Below the pieces are notes generated by a model that saw only the letters and a program-made list of their open reading frames with translations, made no database searches and was not told where the DNA came from. DNA of 21,458 nucleotides from a virus: positions 1-21,458 of the IMG/VR virus record IMGVR_UViG_3300000117_000333; one strand, written 5' to 3'. A program made the translations under genes and the position numbers. Positions 8,028 through 21,026 of the stretch are shown one piece after another; the stretch's first letter is position 1; each line of letters opens with the position of its first letter.

Positions 8028-8188
8028 TTATTAAAAACTAAAATAATTAGTTTACTTAATATAATAATAACCTTGTTAGTAAACCACTTACGGAAACTAA
8101 TAAATAAGGGATAGGACAACGGAGGAAGCTGAAAATCCGACATAGAGTAGGCATTATAAATAGCTTGTAGCTTAACTACTAAAATAAA
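8028..8188 (+). ncRNA. Long structured leader or independent small RNA, unidentified
   Basis: A 160-base gap between a motif A promoter and the next ATG in a genome with almost no gaps. It can fold in competing ways: GTTTACT (8050-8056) with AGTAAAC, CCTT/TTAGT with ACTAA/AAGG, and CGGA with TCCG around the purine-rich stretch near 8120-8140. It contains more G and C than the surrounding leaders, also suggestive of an RNA. I find no match to tRNA, tmRNA or a riboswitch class I know. It could regulate the 8189 gene or act by itself. Confidence 0.4.
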
Positions 8189-8536
8189 ATGAATAAGTTT
8201 AGAAACACAAAACCAACAATTCACAACCAAAAGAAACAGTTTAATCCAAACAAATATGGAAAGCTTTGGTCTGGTATCAACTTTGAACTAGCTGATACTC
8301 AAGCATACATTGAAAAGGATACACAACCACTTATGGGTTATCTTATAATTGATAACAAAAAGATAGGTATTACTTGGTCTGAATCAAATCGTATTATCGA
8401 GACATTACTTGATGCGCAACATCGCCACAAAGTAGCACAAAGATTAGGAATGTTAAATAAAGGTGAAGGTACACCTAAGAACATTAAGTTTAAAACATAC
8501 GACGATGCTGGTAATGTTGTAGCAACTAACATGTAA
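8189..8536 (+). CDS. Hypothetical protein, 115 residues
   Basis: Soluble protein starting MNKFRNTKPTIHNQKKQFNP, with a basic N-terminus, a central LMGYLIIDNKKIGITWSE strand pair and a helix DAQHRHKVAQRLGML. No family recognised. Its mRNA appears to carry the 160-base structured leader. Seven bases after its stop TAA comes GGAG and the next gene. Confidence 0.6.
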   Translation: MNKFRNTKPTIHNQKKQFNPNKYGKLWSGINFELADTQAYIEKDTQPLMGYLIIDNKKIGITWSESNRIIETLLDAQHRHKVAQRLGMLNKGEGTPKNIKFKTYDDAGNVVATNM

Positions 8537-8902: not shown

Positions 8903-9352
8903 ATGACAACACTAAAAGTAGACACGCCTTTCGGCACAAGACTATTCCCAACAGATTTATTATTTAAAAATTTCTTTGATAGAGCATCAGCTTTTCAGAG
9001 TAATATAGATTCTAAGATTAACCATCCTGTAGATATTATTCTAAAGGAAGAATTCTTAGTATTTGAAATAGCAGCTGTAGGATTAGAGAAAAAAGATATC
9101 GAACTTCAGGTTGAAGATGGAAACTGTTTAAAAGTTTCGTATACTAAACCAAGTATAGATTCAAATAATTCAGAAATCGATGCAGGACAATATATACATA
9201 AAGGTATTGCAAAGAGATCGTTCGAACTAGGATGGAAAATTAGTCCTAAGTTTGATTTAACACAGATTGACGCCAAGATGGAATATGGGTTACTAACAAT
9301 ATCAGTACCTATTACTCCTGAAAGTCGTCCAAAAACTATTAAAATAAAATAG
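8903..9352 (+). CDS. Small heat-shock protein Hsp20 (alpha-crystallin family)
   Basis: A 149-residue protein. The N-terminal ~40 residues are the variable arm (contains FFDRASAF). An alpha-crystallin domain runs from about 43 to 142 with the expected landmarks: HPVDIILKEEFLVFEIAAVG at its start, the LEKKDIELQVEDGNCLKV segment, a basic/aromatic stretch AKRSFELGWKIS, and AKMEYGLLTISVP, which corresponds to the family A-x-x-x-n-G-v-L signature. The final I-K-I tripeptide resembles the family's C-terminal IxI oligomerisation motif. It is an ATP-independent holdase that keeps unfolding proteins soluble; homologs are common in marine T4-like phages. A strong AAGGAG ribosome site and a motif B promoter suggest high expression. 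Confidence 0.9.
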   Translation: MTTLKVDTPFGTRLFPTDLLFKNFFDRASAFQSNIDSKINHPVDIILKEEFLVFEIAAVGLEKKDIELQVEDGNCLKVSYTKPSIDSNNSEIDAGQYIHKGIAKRSFELGWKISPKFDLTQIDAKMEYGLLTISVPITPESRPKTIKIK

Positions 9353-9652: not shown

Positions 9653-9719
9653 TATGACTGTTAGTACTTTTATTAGCTACTCTTATGGACGAGGGTTCGA
9701 CTCCCTCCATCTCCACAAA

Positions 9720-9783
9720 GAATTATATTCAATTAGATATAATACGATCAATATCTAATGAATTATATTCAAATAGATATAAT
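9720..9783 (+). repeat. tmRNA intervening segment: 24-bp direct repeats and a hairpin
   Basis: The spacer between the two tmRNA pieces contains two 24-base copies (9720-9743 and 9760-9783) that differ at one position; the second ends on the base before G9784, the 5' end of the coding piece. TTAGATAT (9733-9740) pairs with ATATCTAA (9751-9758) around a 10-base loop. In other permuted tmRNAs this segment is cut out by tRNA-type processing; the repeat may help define the cleavage sites. Confidence 0.75.
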
Positions 9784-9843
9784 GGGGATGAATTGGAATT
9801 TGACAAAGAGATAAGGGTAAAAGGAAGGTCAACGCAATTAACT

Positions 9844-9879
9844 GGCGAACAAGTTGAACTAGCAATGGCTGCCTGATAA
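9844..9879 (+). other. tmRNA proteolysis-tag reading frame
   Basis: GGC to GCC encodes GEQVELAMAA, followed by two stops in a row (TGA TAA). Length (10 codons), the LA-x-AA ending and the double stop are typical of tmRNA tags. The resume codon GGC is chosen because AATTAACT just before it resembles the AUAGUC context before the E. coli resume codon; an earlier start (adding STQLT) cannot be excluded. Together with the tRNA-borne alanine the tag would be A-GEQVELAMAA. Confidence 0.75.
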
Positions 9880-9892
9880 GGTACCCAGAGCG

Positions 9893-9979
9893 AACGGTAA
9901 AAAGAAGCCATGTCGTTAAAGCTTCGGTGGTTTGAGGTAAAATATAAAATGAAGGTGTTAGGAATTCTTCCTTCGAGTT
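9893..9979 (+). other. Two H-type pseudoknots of the tmRNA coding piece
   Basis: First: AACGGTA (9893-9899) with TGTCGTT (9911-9917), crossed by GAAGC (9904-9908) with GCTTC (9921-9925). Second: GAAGG (9951-9955) with CCTTC (9970-9974), crossed by AATTC (9963-9967) with GAGTT (9975-9979, one G-U pair). A third local hairpin is GTCTG (9986-9990) with CAGAC (10000-10004). Pseudoknots downstream of the tag are a defining part of tmRNA architecture. Found by eye, not by folding software. Confidence 0.6.
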
Positions 9980-10057
9980 GTTTGCGTCTGAAGACGTCAC
10001 AGACAGTTAAAAGAGTTCAGCTGGGTTGGGAAGGTGGAAATATTAAAAAGGAAAAAT

Positions 10058-10747
10058 ATGTACGAACACAAGACATGGTTGATTGATGATATATTAGATC
10101 CAAGTTCTGACTTTTGGAAGATCGGCGGTAAAATGGAACTTGATAGCCTTTTATCTCGTATTTCTCCTTTACAAACAAAAAAGCTGTTTAAAATAACTAA
10201 AGAAGATCCAGTAATGGATAAATTTTCTGAGTTTATTGACTTCTTTTCCTCACTATCAACAGATGCAGCTAACGAATATATAGAGTTTGTAGAAGACAAC
10301 GAAGCTGATATATTATCTGACCAAGTTTGGTTATTAGTTGATAAACAAGATAGACGAGAATTATTTGATAGTGATGTTAATACATTTGATTTATGGTGGA
10401 GTACATTACACCATTCAGAAATAGAATACTACATGACAAGACTTGTTGAAAATAAAAGGTTAGTTAGCCCTAAGAATGTCTTATCATTTGTAAAAAGACT
10501 ACAAATATTAGGAGAAAAAACAGATCCTACTAGAAATATAAAATATTATCCGCTAGAAGCAGGAAAGTTTTTAACAATACAAATGATAGGAGACAAATTA
10601 GCTATCAGTAGTAGAGACGTTAAAAAGTTAGACTCTGTAAAAAACCTTTTAGTATCTAGAGGCAATATATTTATAGAAGAACGATGTAAAACCAGCCCAC
10701 AAGGCGATAAGATACACACTTATCTATTTTTAACAAAGAGTGTATAG
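10058..10747 (+). CDS. Hypothetical protein, 229 residues
   Basis: Soluble protein beginning MYEHKTWLIDDILDPSSDFW. I start it at ATG 10058, which has AAAAGG six bases before; an in-frame GTG at 10034 would run into the tmRNA. No family recognised. The first ~150 residues are acidic and helical with repeated FxxFIDFFSSLS/EYIEFVEDNE patches. The last ~75 residues (FLTIQMIGDKLAISSRDVKK...NIFIEERC..HTYLFLTKSV) look like an alpha/beta domain. It may be a structural or regulatory protein; its position directly after the tmRNA gives no further clue. Confidence 0.6.
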   Translation: MYEHKTWLIDDILDPSSDFWKIGGKMELDSLLSRISPLQTKKLFKITKEDPVMDKFSEFIDFFSSLSTDAANEYIEFVEDNEADILSDQVWLLVDKQDRRELFDSDVNTFDLWWSTLHHSEIEYYMTRLVENKRLVSPKNVLSFVKRLQILGEKTDPTRNIKYYPLEAGKFLTIQMIGDKLAISSRDVKKLDSVKNLLVSRGNIFIEERCKTSPQGDKIHTYLFLTKSV

Positions 10748-10771: not shown

Positions 10772-10951
10772 ATGAAAACAAAAAGAAAAGTACAACCATT
10801 ATTAGAAAGAGCAAGCCAATTAATATATAGTCTAGAGAATGTAGTTAGAGCTAGAAAGGCTGACGAAAAATTTGTAGTCGAAAAATTAGTAATTATCAAG
10901 GAGTTACTAAAAAAAGTAGAAAGTAATATAAATTTAGAACATGAAGGATAA
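10772..10951 (+). CDS. 59-residue helical protein
   Basis: Encodes MKTKRKVQPLLERASQLIYS and continues as a single charged amphipathic helix-rich chain ending NINLEHEG. Heptad-like leucine/valine spacing suggests a short coiled coil. It overlaps the next gene by 11 bases, so it is probably translationally coupled to the membrane protein, whose middle region is also coiled coil. Function unknown. Confidence 0.55.
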   Translation: MKTKRKVQPLLERASQLIYSLENVVRARKADEKFVVEKLVIIKELLKKVESNINLEHEG

Positions 10952-11939
10952 AATTTTACCATATATAATAGCCTTATCAGCATTAGCTGTATCGGGTTCT
11001 GCAGCTTTTTATTCGGTATACGGACTGAGTATGTTATTTGCAGGAGCCAGCTTACAGGTTATTATTATGGCAGGTAGTCTTGAGTTTGCAAAATTAGTTG
11101 TAGCATCACTATTATATCAATATTGGGATACTATAAATAAAGTTTTGCGTTTTTATTTAGGTGTTGCATGTCTTGTTCTTATGATTATAACTAGTGGAGG
11201 TATATACGGATTCTTATCTGGAGCCTATCAATCAACAGCAACAAAATCAGAACTACTTGATAAGTCATTATCAATATTAAAACAAAAACAATTCAGGTTT
11301 GAAGAGTCTAAACAAGATATTAAATATGAAAAAGAAAGTCTGACTAAATCTATTTCTGATTTAAGAATATCTCTGTCAAATCCAGCTCAAGTACAATACA
11401 TAGATCGAGAATCAGGCCAATTAATAACTACAACCTCATCGTCAAGTAGAAGAGCTTTACAAAATGAATTAGCTACAACATTAGAGGATAGAAATATTAT
11501 AAATGAAAAATTGGCTGCAATTGAAGATTCTATAACAAAGACTGATATGTCTATATTAGATAAGCAAGTAGACAATGAACAAGAACGTGAATTAGGACCA
11601 TTAAAATATCTTGCAGAAACAACTGGTAGAGATATGAATACTATTGTTAATTGGTTTTTATTAATGATTATATTTGTGTTTGACCCATTAGCAATTGCAT
11701 TAGTAGTTGCAGCAAACATGGCATTTGCAATGCAAAAACCTAGAATAAAAATGTCTGTACCTGAAGGAATGGAGTTCAATACACCATATCCTATTGATTT
11801 AGAAGAGCCAATAGAGCCTACACTGGATAATCAAGAATTAGAAGGAACAGACCCCGATATTTACGGAGAAGATAGAACACATATGGTAAAGGACGAAAAA
11901 GGAGTTTACCGACCTATGAAAGTTAAAAAGAATATATAG
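10941..11939 (+). CDS. Four-TM membrane protein with a central coiled coil
   Basis: A 332-residue protein. Three hydrophobic segments lie near the N-terminus (about 6-29, 33-58, 72-96), then a long charged coiled-coil region (about 103-215, with LLDKSLSILKQKQFRFEESK and repeated acidic/basic heptads), then a fourth membrane segment at about 234-265 (FLLMIIFVFDPLAIALVVAA) and a polar tail. With four passes the coiled coil and the tail would lie on opposite or same sides depending on the N-terminal orientation; the basic loops favour N-in. Proteins of this shape recur in large marine T4-like phages without an assigned function, as far as I recall. Confidence 0.65.
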   Translation: MKDKILPYIIALSALAVSGSAAFYSVYGLSMLFAGASLQVIIMAGSLEFAKLVVASLLYQYWDTINKVLRFYLGVACLVLMIITSGGIYGFLSGAYQSTATKSELLDKSLSILKQKQFRFEESKQDIKYEKESLTKSISDLRISLSNPAQVQYIDRESGQLITTTSSSSRRALQNELATTLEDRNIINEKLAAIEDSITKTDMSILDKQVDNEQERELGPLKYLAETTGRDMNTIVNWFLLMIIFVFDPLAIALVVAANMAFAMQKPRIKMSVPEGMEFNTPYPIDLEEPIEPTLDNQELEGTDPDIYGEDRTHMVKDEKGVYRPMKVKKNI

Positions 11940-12546: not shown

Positions 12547-12783
12547 ATGTTAATAAATATGACTGATAAACTAATTTACCAACGGGGTGGATCCACTAAA
12601 GAGGCAAAGCAAATAATATTTGAGCTTCCTAAAGAAATGACTTGTCATGAATTTAAGGTTATGTGTATAAGAATGGCTCACGCAATTGGCTATCACGACT
12701 CATCTGTACGAGAAAACTTTGGTAAAATAGAAGATAAAAACTTTAAACATGATAAAAAACAACTTAAATTATTATTTGACTAA
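12547..12783 (+). CDS. Hypothetical protein, 78 residues
   Basis: Small basic protein, starting MLINMTDKLIYQRGGSTKEA; an alternative start is the ATG at 12559. The pattern EMTCHEFKVMCIRMAHAIGYHD looks like one helix. No family recognised. It is the first gene of the operon continuing with ClpP, HD protein, membrane protein and sigma factor, with one base between its stop and the ClpP start. A role as an adaptor for the protease is possible from position alone. Confidence 0.6.
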   Translation: MLINMTDKLIYQRGGSTKEAKQIIFELPKEMTCHEFKVMCIRMAHAIGYHDSSVRENFGKIEDKNFKHDKKQLKLLFD

Positions 12784-12784
12784 T

Positions 12785-13408
12785 ATGGCATTATACGACG
12801 AAGATATGGAACGAGAATTACCTGGAAAACAGGCAAAAACCGAAACACTACAACCACAAAAATCATCAGCTTGGGAAGAATCAGAACGAGGAGTATACAT
12901 ACCTGAAAGTGTTTTATATTTAGTAGGAGAAATTGCTGAATATTCGTTATTTGACTTTATGACTAAGGTTAGAACTATTATTAGAGAACGTGATGAATCA
13001 TACAAAGATGAGGCATTAAACTTAATAATTAATTCACCAGGAGGAGATGTTTCTGAGATGTTTGGAATAATTGACTTTATGGAGTTGATAGATACAAAGG
13101 TAAATACAATATGTAGAGGCTCTGCACAATCGGCAGGAGCAATAATTTTAGCATGTGGAACAGGACAGAGAGCTGCATCTAAGCATTCAACAATTATGTT
13201 TCACCAAGGATCTACGTTCTCACAAGGAAAGCTATCAGATGTAAGAGCTGGCCTAGAATATTCTAAATCAGTAGAAGCTAAAATATATACATTACTTGGT
13301 GAAAAAACAAAAAAACCAGCAAATTGGTGGGAAGAAAAAATGAAGTCTGACTTTTACTTAACTGCTGAAGACGCCTTAGAATTAGGTGTAATAGATACAA
13401 TAGGATAA
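12785..13408 (+). CDS. clpP: ClpP-like serine protease
   Basis: A 207-residue protein with a complete ClpP catalytic triad: Ser116 in GSAQSAGAI, His140 in IMFHQG, and Asp189 in KSDFYLTAEDALELGVID, which aligns with the ERDxFLSAxEAxxYGLID motif of ClpP. INSPGGDV at 82-89 is the conserved substrate-strand loop. The first ~35 residues are a polar extension longer than in host ClpP. I chose ATG 12785 because the earlier in-frame ATG at 12749 would add residues from inside the upstream gene. ClpP forms a barrel protease fed by an AAA+ unfoldase (ClpX/ClpA), presumably the host's, as none is in the window. Processing of phage structural proteins or degradation of tmRNA-tagged peptides are the obvious roles. 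Confidence 0.88.
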   Translation: MALYDEDMERELPGKQAKTETLQPQKSSAWEESERGVYIPESVLYLVGEIAEYSLFDFMTKVRTIIRERDESYKDEALNLIINSPGGDVSEMFGIIDFMELIDTKVNTICRGSAQSAGAIILACGTGQRAASKHSTIMFHQGSTFSQGKLSDVRAGLEYSKSVEAKIYTLLGEKTKKPANWWEEKMKSDFYLTAEDALELGVIDTIG

Positions 13409-18690: not shown

Positions 18691-19146
18691 ATGGCAATAC
18701 CTCCTAGAAAAATATTTAGAATTAATCCAGCTGATGAAGATGATAGAATTTCAGTTGGAATAGATTTGCCGCTTAGAGACCAAAATGATTCTCCTTTTCC
18801 ACAGACTAGGACAACTATAAAGGCCGCTGCAGCAAATCTTAAAAACTTAATTCTGACTAGAAAGGGAGAAAGACCATTTCATCCAACATTAGGAACTAGT
18901 ATATATGATTTTCTATTTGACCAAAATGTAGATGAAATGATTACAAAGATAGAAGAAGAAATAAACGAAGCTGTTGCATACTGGTTACCATATGTACAAA
19001 TAACAAATCTAGTGGTTGGAGTAGCTGATAAAGCCTATGGTTTTAGTGATAGTTTTAATGGTGTTAGAATATCACTTAGCTTTACACTAGCCGGAAATAG
19101 ATTTAATGAAGAATCAATAGTCCTTGTAATAGGCGGAGTAGAATAA
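18691..19146 (+). CDS. Baseplate wedge protein gp25-like (GPW family)
   Basis: A 151-residue protein (T4 gp25 is 132). LKNLILTRKGERPFHPTLGTSIYDFLFDQ (51-79) is the family hallmark, containing the TxxGERxxxPxfG motif found in T4 gp25, phage P2 gpW and the sheath-tube assembly proteins of contractile tail systems. A long helix (about 80-98, DEMITKIEEEINEAVAYWLP) follows, then two beta strands. gp25 is the core wedge subunit that starts sheath assembly. Its stop overlaps the next start (TAATG), coupling it to gp6. Confidence 0.88.
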   Translation: MAIPPRKIFRINPADEDDRISVGIDLPLRDQNDSPFPQTRTTIKAAAANLKNLILTRKGERPFHPTLGTSIYDFLFDQNVDEMITKIEEEINEAVAYWLPYVQITNLVVGVADKAYGFSDSFNGVRISLSFTLAGNRFNEESIVLVIGGVE

Positions 19147-21026
19147 TGGCACTAGTTAAAAAAGATGTAAAATACTTAAATAAAGATTTTTCTCAGTTTA
19201 GAGAAAAGTTAGTTAATTTTGCAAAAACATATTTTCCTGACACATATACTGATTTTAATGAAACTTCTCCTGGAATGATGTTCATTGAAATGACAGCCTA
19301 TGTTGGAGATGTACTATCACTATATATTGACAATCAACTTAGAGAGTCAATGTTATTGCACGCAGAAGAGCCTCAAAATATTTATGATATTTCACAGGCA
19401 TTAGGATATAAACCAAATCCATCTACGGCCGCAACAACTGATTTAGATGTTTTTCATTTAGTTCCAGCCATCGGAAATGGTGTTGATATTAGACCAGATT
19501 TTAGGTATGCTGTAGAAATACAGGAAGGACTAACTGTTAAATCTACAGAAAATTCAGATATAGAATTTAGAACGTTAGAAGTTATAGATTTTAGTGTGTC
19601 TAGTTCTTCAAACCCTACAGAAGTTTCAATATATAAGGTTGATGAAAATACAGGTGCACCTCAATATTACTTATTACAAAAAACAGTACGTTCTATTTCT
19701 GGAAAATTAGAGTCACAAACTTTTACGTTTACTGAACCTAAGAAATTTGATAGGGTTAGACTAGGACCTACTAATATTATTGATATTGTTGATTGTAAAG
19801 ATATAGATGGAAACAAATGGTACGAAGTAGATTATTTAGCTCAGGATACTGTTTATACTGAAGTTAAACAAGGAGTAGCTCAAGATCCTTTATTATCAGC
19901 ATATGCAGATTCTGTTCCATATATACTATCATTAAGACGTGTACCAAGACGTTTCACTAAAAGAATAACATCGAATAATCAAATAGAATTACATTTCGGT
20001 GCAGGAGTATCGGCAAATGCAGATGAAATTATTTTACCAAATCCAATAAATGTAGGCATGCAGCTGCCATATGGTAATACGTCAGGATTAGACAATTCTT
20101 TTGACCCTACAAATGTACTATTCACTAGAGGATATGGAAAAGCTCCATCAGACACAACCTTAGTTGTCAGATACTATACAGGTGGTGGAATATCGTCAAA
20201 TGTTTCAGCTAGAACATTAACCAACATAACAAATACTGAATTTTTAGGAGGAACTGATGGTCTAGATTCAACTGTAGTAGATTTTTGTAGAAAGTCTATA
20301 GCTTGCACAAACCCAACAGGAGCAACTGGTGGTAGAGGACAAGAAACTATTGATGAAATACGACAAAACGCACTTGCTGCGTATTCTACACAAAATAGAG
20401 CTGTAACTAAAGAAGATTATATTGCTAGAGTTTATACTTTACCTGGAAAATATGGAAGTATTGCAAAGGCATATGTAGAACGAGACGAACAAAACTTACA
20501 ACCCGATGGATCTACAACCTTTAATCCATTGGCTATAAATATTTATTGCCTATCATATAACGCAAATAAACAACTTATTGCACCTAACTTGGCTACAAAA
20601 ACAAATTTAAAAACATATCTTAGTAAGTATAGAATGTTAACTGATGGAATAAATTTAAGAAACGCACATGTAATTAATATTGGGGTAAAGTTTGATATAT
20701 TATCTAGACCTGACTCAATATCTAAAGAAGTACTTATTAAGACAATTAATGAAGCTAAAAAATATTTTGCAATAGACAAATGGCAAATAAATGAACCTAT
20801 CTCGATATCTGATCTTGCTGCAACCTTAGACCAAGTTGAAGGTGTACAATCAATCTTAAACTTAACACTTGTAAATAAGTTTGATGCAACTTCTGGATAT
20901 TCTCCTAATTATTATGATATAGGTGAAGCTACTAAAAACAATGTGGTGTATCCTTCAATGGATCCATCAATATTCGAGGTCAGATTCCCAGATACTGATA
21001 TTGAAGCAAGAATAGTTGGAGCATAA
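19146..21026 (+). CDS. Baseplate wedge protein gp6-like (baseplate J family)
   Basis: A 626-residue protein, close to T4 gp6 (660). The N-terminus has LNKDFSQFREKLVNFAKTYFPD and then TSPGMMFIEMTAYVGDVLSLYIDNQLRES (about 40-68), the signature of gp6/baseplate J proteins. FLGGTDGLDSTVVDF (about 367) and the TGGRGQETIDEIRQNALAAY...RAVTKEDYIARVYTLPG block (about 395-435) are the second conserved region. The C-terminal part is an alpha/beta repeat (INIGVKFDILSRP; KTINEAKKYFAIDKW). gp6 dimers form the inner ring of the wedges and transmit the signal for sheath contraction. Confidence 0.9.
   Translation: MALVKKDVKYLNKDFSQFREKLVNFAKTYFPDTYTDFNETSPGMMFIEMTAYVGDVLSLYIDNQLRESMLLHAEEPQNIYDISQALGYKPNPSTAATTDLDVFHLVPAIGNGVDIRPDFRYAVEIQEGLTVKSTENSDIEFRTLEVIDFSVSSSSNPTEVSIYKVDENTGAPQYYLLQKTVRSISGKLESQTFTFTEPKKFDRVRLGPTNIIDIVDCKDIDGNKWYEVDYLAQDTVYTEVKQGVAQDPLLSAYADSVPYILSLRRVPRRFTKRITSNNQIELHFGAGVSANADEIILPNPINVGMQLPYGNTSGLDNSFDPTNVLFTRGYGKAPSDTTLVVRYYTGGGISSNVSARTLTNITNTEFLGGTDGLDSTVVDFCRKSIACTNPTGATGGRGQETIDEIRQNALAAYSTQNRAVTKEDYIARVYTLPGKYGSIAKAYVERDEQNLQPDGSTTFNPLAINIYCLSYNANKQLIAPNLATKTNLKTYLSKYRMLTDGINLRNAHVINIGVKFDILSRPDSISKEVLIKTINEAKKYFAIDKWQINEPISISDLAATLDQVEGVQSILNLTLVNKFDATSGYSPNYYDIGEATKNNVVYPSMDPSIFEVRFPDTDIEARIVGA

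Follow-up and report, generated by a model that had tools for sequence, protein, structure and literature searches.

The window, by which we mean the whole stretch of DNA analysed here, is a 21,458-base fragment from IMG/VR. It encodes parts of a T4-type baseplate wedge (PHROG 6/219 at 19146-21026 and PHROG 261 at 18691-19146), which agrees with the earlier description of the phage as T4-like: it is a myovirus with T4-type baseplate genes. The nearest isolates to the gp6-type protein are Microcystis phage Mel-JY01 (48%) and Flavobacterium phage immuto (42%), and immuto is also the nearest isolate for a membrane protein encoded at 10941-11939 (45%). A lipoprotein of the window contains the sequence LLSCQKEVDD, which we take to be a Bacteroidota-like signal. 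This marine phage probably infects Bacteroidota. The window contains a circularly permuted tmRNA gene (9655-9925, + strand), in which the acceptor half precedes the coding half. A small heat-shock protein of the Hsp20 type is encoded 5′ of it (8903-9352, + strand) and a ClpP-type protease 3′ of it (12749-13408, + strand; PF00574, or a head maturation protease according to PHROGs). It is conceivable that these neighbours are linked to the degradation of tagged proteins. A DUF805b RNA motif (RF02914, 46.1 bits) was observed at 8119-8153 (+), before the ORF at 8189-8536.

The identity of the gene was confirmed by several methods. ARAGORN, whose permuted mode the earlier note had proposed as a check, called the sole tmRNA of the window as permuted, with the tag GEQVELAMAA and two stops. 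The general permuted model of Rfam, RF04321, matched 9668-9876 with 59.4 bits against a cut-off of 47. The standard model RF00023 gave 30.6 bits against a cut-off of 47, fitting the 3′ part only and yielding no full-length collinear match. Of the clade models named in the earlier note, alpha_tmRNA, beta_tmRNA and cyano_tmRNA, none reached its gathering threshold in the window; any matches to them below cut-off are overlapped and outranked by the 30.6-bit RF00023 match. A detector combining T-arm, D-loop and 7/7 acceptor pairing in permuted order gave a single hit in the window, whereas 300 dinucleotide shuffles yielded no hit. The two-strand folding energy of the halves was only modestly better than that of shuffles (-14.5 compared with -9.4, sd 3.1). 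As in RF04321, the 3′ half of the tRNA-like domain is encoded 5′ of the 5′ half, the halves pair by the acceptor stem and by helix P2 with covariation, and a tag frame with a resume codon, a hydrophobic end and a stop is present. The window gene lacks the pseudoknot PK1 before the tag. PK1 is typical of permuted tmRNA but lies outside the RF04321 model, and it was therefore not used as a condition of membership.

All elements of the gene lie on the + strand. The acceptor piece carries the 3′ strands of P2: block c (UGACU, 9655-9659), which lies close to its 5′ end, pairs with 9827-9831, block b (CUUUUAUU, 9667-9674) with 9816-9823 and block a (CUCUU, 9680-9684) with 9806-9810. The two blocks of P2 proposed beforehand, a and b, were found as described; the third, block c, had been missed. 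The T-arm GAGGG-UUCGACU-CCCUC (9691-9707) is recognised by its sequence, RF04321 and ARAGORN. It is followed by the 3′ acceptor strand CAUCUCC (9708-9714) and the discriminator A73 (9715). CCA is not encoded at 9715, where the acceptor piece is predicted to end before CCA addition. After an intervening sequence of 68 nt (9716-9783), the coding half starts with the 5′ acceptor strand GGGGAUG (9784-9790), which begins 69 nt after the 3′ acceptor strand and is supported by ARAGORN, RF04321 and pairing. The two strands pair at 7/7 positions, so that both the order of the halves and the 7-bp stem with a G3-U70 pair are as the earlier note had them. The D-loop analogue (9791-9804) ends in UUUGAC, a motif common to Bacteroidales standard tmRNAs, and the 5′ strand of P2, supported by covariation, occupies 9806-9831. 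A single-stranded resume context without PK1 (9832-9843) leads to the resume codon, 60 nt past the start of the 5′ acceptor strand. ARAGORN places the tag frame at 9844-9879, with the tag GEQVELAMAA (9844-9873) followed by UGA UAA. The pseudoknot PK2 (9894-9925) consists of the stems ACGGU/GUCGU (9894-9898, 9912-9916) and GAAGC/GCUUC (9904-9908, 9921-9925), and double changes were observed in both.

At least 27 distinct viral sequences that are related carry the same permuted gene. They comprise contigs identified by way of the membrane protein encoded at 10941-11939, upstream of which the gene sits in those contigs, plus two sequences obtained by other routes (L011 and L175). The acceptor stem pairs at 7/7 positions in 27/27 and retains G3-U70 in every family member. 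The stem varies at one position only, where C-G, U-A and G-C were all seen. Block a of P2, which joins the halves, occurs in 13 strand combinations with full pairing in 25 of 27. Block c also covaries (UGACC/GGUCA, UGAUC/GAUCA, UGAAC/GUUCA and CGAC/GUCG, with UGACU/GGUCA in the window). In 25 aligned relatives, the proposed helices were paired in 93.6% of cells, compared with 42.7-52.6% when slid. Changes on both sides were seen in 83 cells (shuffled mean 26.1) and at 16 pairs (shuffled mean 10.3); the score for covariation was 0.297, compared with 0.144 ± 0.008. The resume codon, the tag and the stops are conserved, with changes that are mostly synonymous or conservative (tags GEQVELAMAA, GEQVEMAMAA, GAQVEMAMAA, GEHVEMAMAA). 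The distribution of the gene is patchy: only part of the related viral contigs, many of which are fragments, score above the RF04321 cut-off, and RF04321 is absent from immuto and Mel-JY01. Few tmRNAs were found among relatives of the baseplate genes because most of these contigs end too soon. Such patchiness might be expected of a decaying remnant without function, but a remnant would hardly keep its acceptor stem intact in 27/27, accumulate compensating changes in P2 and PK2 and preserve the tag, and we regard this explanation as extremely improbable.

A strict permuted pattern with a gap of 55-85 nt gave no match in viral contigs. Among 84,980 cellular species screened by pattern there was a single match, in a Pelagibacter MAG. 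We did not treat it as a cellular gene, because its contig is phage-like and the genome has a higher-scoring permuted gene of its own on another contig. L175, a phage-like contig from the bin of a Pelagibacter MAG, carries a relative (486-731, - strand) whose tag appears to run in frame for 37 residues (GTQIKSVKAGIFASLAAIRLLATETVATEESVYAMAA).

The length of the intervening sequence differs widely among relatives. It is 16-21 nt in most and ranges from 16 to 91 nt in the family. The window and five other sequences have spacers of 68-69 nt that contain AU-rich hairpins; that of the window carries GAAUUAUAUUCAnnUAGAUAUAAU twice (9720-9743 and 9760-9783), each copy of which can form a hairpin. Three near-identical relatives (L085-L087) have only 18 nt between the halves. 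In one relative (L190), the intervening sequence of 91 nt holds a complete tRNA-Glu(UUC) gene (1598-1669, - strand). The variability fits a discarded spacer, and a whole tRNA gene inside the spacer is in keeping with removal by tRNA enzymes. Removal of 9716-9783 is predicted, as is an RNase P cut before 9784 that would create the 5′ end of the coding piece. Alternatively, the transcript might stay uncut and work as a single folded RNA, with the 16-21 nt of most relatives serving as a loop. A loop of this kind is difficult to reconcile with spacers of 68-91 nt, one of them enclosing a full tRNA gene, and the permuted forms known so far undergo cutting (PMC3985003, PMC11915505), which makes an uncut RNA quite improbable.

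The coding piece of the family is short before the tag. In the window family, 56-60 nt separate the start of this piece from the resume codon; the distance is 59-62 nt in three crAss-like phages and Chryseobacterium phage MA9V-3, compared with 84-86 nt in 18 alphaproteobacterial genes, 85 nt in a Pelagibacter genome and 78 nt in Pelagibacter phage Mosig. The missing stretch corresponds to PK1, indicating that PK1 is absent in the family, and the single covarying pseudoknot, PK2, lies 3′ of the tag. Coding pieces of two-piece tmRNAs typically retain both PK1 and PK2 (PMC3985003). Helix 4 of PK1 has been recorded as missing in Oenococcus oeni and a Pavlova plastid (PMC1168896), and E. coli tagging persists when PK1 is replaced by single-stranded RNA (PMC4236655). 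On the other hand, some earlier studies in E. coli had assigned PK1 an important role in tagging (PMC3968760), which counts against a functional tmRNA without it.

The earlier note had extended the pseudoknots of the coding half to 10030. This did not hold: only one pseudoknot (9894-9925) belongs to the tmRNA. The region 9951-10035 was considered as PK3/PK4 and rejected, because it is an independent module that occurs without a tmRNA. It is part of a structured leader RNA of the next gene (9951-10037, + strand), which is present without tmRNA in L088, L089 and L095; other relatives have the tmRNA without the leader RNA. In the leader RNA, the loop AAUUCUU (9963-9969) of a GAAGG/CCUUC hairpin forms a pseudoknot with AAGAGUU (10011-10017); the RNA also carries the conserved sequences GCGUCUGAGACGUC and AGCUAAAAGAGUUCAGCUGGG. 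Compensating changes in this pseudoknot were observed in L116 (GUUCUC/GAGAAC) and L124 (AAUCCU/AGGGUU). The downstream gene (10058-10747, + strand) encodes 229 aa with no known domain, and members of its family follow the leader RNA in 16/16 distinct cases. The RNA looks like a cis-acting leader, and it is possibly a riboswitch or an autoregulatory element. No Rfam family matched 9951-10037; a resemblance of the module to pseudoknot riboswitches of the SAM-II/preQ1-II type was considered, but it finds no support in Rfam.

We consider it likely, with a probability of roughly 80%, that the gene encodes a Bacteroidota-type permuted tmRNA of marine T4-like phages, which is cut into two RNAs and tags proteins together with host SmpB. 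The gene order, the pairing and the tag can be read from the sequences, and for cutting, charging and tagging we draw on established tmRNA biology, including the activity of the two-piece tmRNA of Caulobacter (PMC3985003). One precursor would be transcribed, comprising the acceptor half, the short intervening sequence and the coding half. Host tRNA enzymes would release the two pieces: 3′ processing behind A73 would be followed by CCA addition, and RNase P would cut before G1 at 9784. The 7-bp acceptor stem and the three blocks of P2 would hold the two resulting RNAs together, and G3-U70 would allow charging by the host alanyl-tRNA synthetase. With host SmpB and EF-Tu, the phage tmRNA could then enter stalled ribosomes, where translation would resume at GGC and add GEQVELAMAA, the hydrophobic AMAA end presumably marking the tagged proteins for proteolysis. 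A search of 12 related virus records revealed no SmpB gene, so host SmpB is assumed. The phage molecule is pared down, with PK1 gone and a lone PK2 3′ of the tag. It is plausible that the phage supplies ribosome rescue during infection, as had been suggested. The RNA could instead act as a decoy, sequestering SmpB or alanyl-tRNA synthetase and so blocking host trans-translation; phage DS6A has a tmRNA consisting of the tRNA domain only, and such an RNA inhibits endogenous E. coli tmRNA (PMC11915505, PMC4131195). A decoy has no need of a tag, yet here the resume codon, tag and stop are kept and changes are mostly synonymous or conservative. The conserved tag and stops argue for tagging, and we regard a decoy as improbable.

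Permuted tmRNA is known from three cellular lineages. The claim that Bacteroidota hosts normally have a one-piece tmRNA was borne out by three Bacteroidales ssrA genes, all in standard order and scoring 123-138 bits to RF00023. They were read from contigs filed as plasmids (OY725991, NZ_OY725762 and NZ_OY725907; L224, L225 and L226), which look like misfiled chromosome fragments because they carry ssrA and, in two of them, chromosome-type genes. Their tags are GNENYALAA, GENNYALAA and GETNYALAA. UUUGAC and a Gly resume codon are common to the phage genes and all three ssrA genes, AAUUAACUGGCGAA to the phage gene and the Parabacteroides ssrA, and UGACUGGAUUUGACA is found in two of the Bacteroidales genes and in many members of the phage family. 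The sampled alpha genes have AUCGAC/UUCGAC or similar; they resume at an Ala codon, encode ANDN tags and differ in the T-loop. In a tree of the tRNA domain and the resume context (67 columns only), the phage genes joined the tmRNAs of Bacteroidales, crAss-like phages, MA9V-3 and a Cellulophaga phage, apart from the alpha permuted genes (84/89), and MA9V-3 grouped with the standard gene of the Cellulophaga phage. Forcing all permuted genes tested into a single clade was 7.5 log units worse on these 67 columns, with a p-AU of 0.19.

Two origins had been proposed, acquisition from a different lineage or permutation in the phage itself. The evidence favours the latter, although the tree alone leaves both open at this p-AU. 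In the first, a tmRNA that was permuted beforehand would have reached the phage from alphaproteobacteria, cyanobacteria or betaproteobacteria, perhaps by way of marine phages such as Mosig, and the Bacteroidota-like features would have come later. Permuted genes do travel in phages: the Mosig gene is alpha-type (67.6 bits to RF01849), that of Acinetobacter phage BUCT628 is beta-type (94.3 bits to RF01850), and the AU test does not reject one clade of all permuted forms (p-AU 0.19). Such a transfer is unlikely, though, because no clade-specific permuted model reached its cut-off in the window, the resume codon is Gly and not Ala, and UUUGAC, the T-loop and PK1 are unlike all sampled alpha genes. 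The Gly resume codon, UUUGAC, AAUUAACUGGCGAA, the lack of a clade model at cut-off and the loss of PK1 instead favour permutation of a Bacteroidota-type tmRNA. Most likely, to judge from these sequence features, such a tmRNA was permuted within a Bacteroidota or phage lineage, and no permuted alpha, beta or cyanobacterial gene was transferred. Since a single permuted clade retains a p-AU of 0.19, independent permutation in Bacteroidota phages is held likely, short of proven. It would have happened at least once, perhaps oftener in view of the grouping of MA9V-3 with the standard Cellulophaga phage gene, together with the loss of PK1, and would make a fourth lineage that is viral while its hosts have the one-piece form.

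Comparison with known systems places the gene further. With RF04321 permuted tmRNA it shares the order of the halves, the 7-bp acceptor stem with G3-U70, P2, the tag and one pseudoknot past the tag; it differs by lacking PK1, by its Bacteroidota-type resume codon and D-loop, and by a host lineage with standard tmRNA. With the forms described by the alpha, beta and cyano models it has the permutation in common, but its tag starts with G and not A and it reaches none of their cut-offs. The standard Bacteroidales tmRNA (RF00023) is similar in UUUGAC, the Gly resume codon, UAACUGGCGAA (Parabacteroides) and a GE-type tag start in 2/3, and differs in its one-piece order and in the four pseudoknots given for the Bacteroides group (PMC1168896). 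The marine phages Melnitz and Mosig also combine a permuted ssrA in a T4-like phage with an adjoining structured RNA element, a predicted glutamine riboswitch in their case (PMC9004378). Their genes are alpha-type, however, and the element adjoining the window gene is different and unnamed; with its resume codon at 78 nt, Mosig retains most of the PK1 stretch. The tmRNAs of the crAss-like phages cr50_1, cr10_1, cr60_1 and cr53_1 and of phage MA9V-3 are permuted by RF04321 or ARAGORN, as the window gene is. The four that were measured (cr50_1, cr10_1, cr60_1 and MA9V-3) have a Gly resume codon and the short spacing without PK1, as in the window family. They differ in their mostly longer intervening sequences and other tags, and cr50_1 and cr10_1 have little past the tag.

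Several side observations were made on these phages. Permuted tmRNAs of crAss-like phages lie in L227 (1496-1731, +), L082, L173 and L174, and the cr53_1 copy is unannotated. A tRNA gene begins about 30 nt past the tag in both cr50_1 and cr10_1, whose intervening sequences contain the T-arm-like AGAGGTTCGACTCCTCT. The beta-type permuted tmRNA of BUCT628 (L228, 721-1025, +) is likewise unannotated; its tag is ANDNVFGAKTLAA.

The novelty implied beforehand has to be narrowed. Permuted phage tmRNAs have been surveyed before: among 133 distinct phage tmRNAs, 53 received a two-piece call, and 50 of the 53 came from marine or aquatic samples (PMC9004378). In addition, crAss-like records are already annotated with tmRNA, so that occurrence in phages is itself not new. 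A 2025 tmRNA database holds 79 phage sequences (PMC11915505). The lineage of the permuted gene seems new; in the literature searched, to which most subscription journals are external, no description was found of permuted tmRNA in Bacteroidota phages or of permuted forms lacking PK1. If a further lineage confined to viruses whose hosts have normal tmRNA is real, it would show that tmRNA is readily permuted and that phages maintain, in reduced form, a ribosome-rescue RNA of their own. The relatives with a tRNA in the spacer or a 37-residue tag broaden the known range of the tmRNA gene, and the natural loss of PK1 offers a ready set of minimal tmRNAs for testing the requirements of trans-translation.
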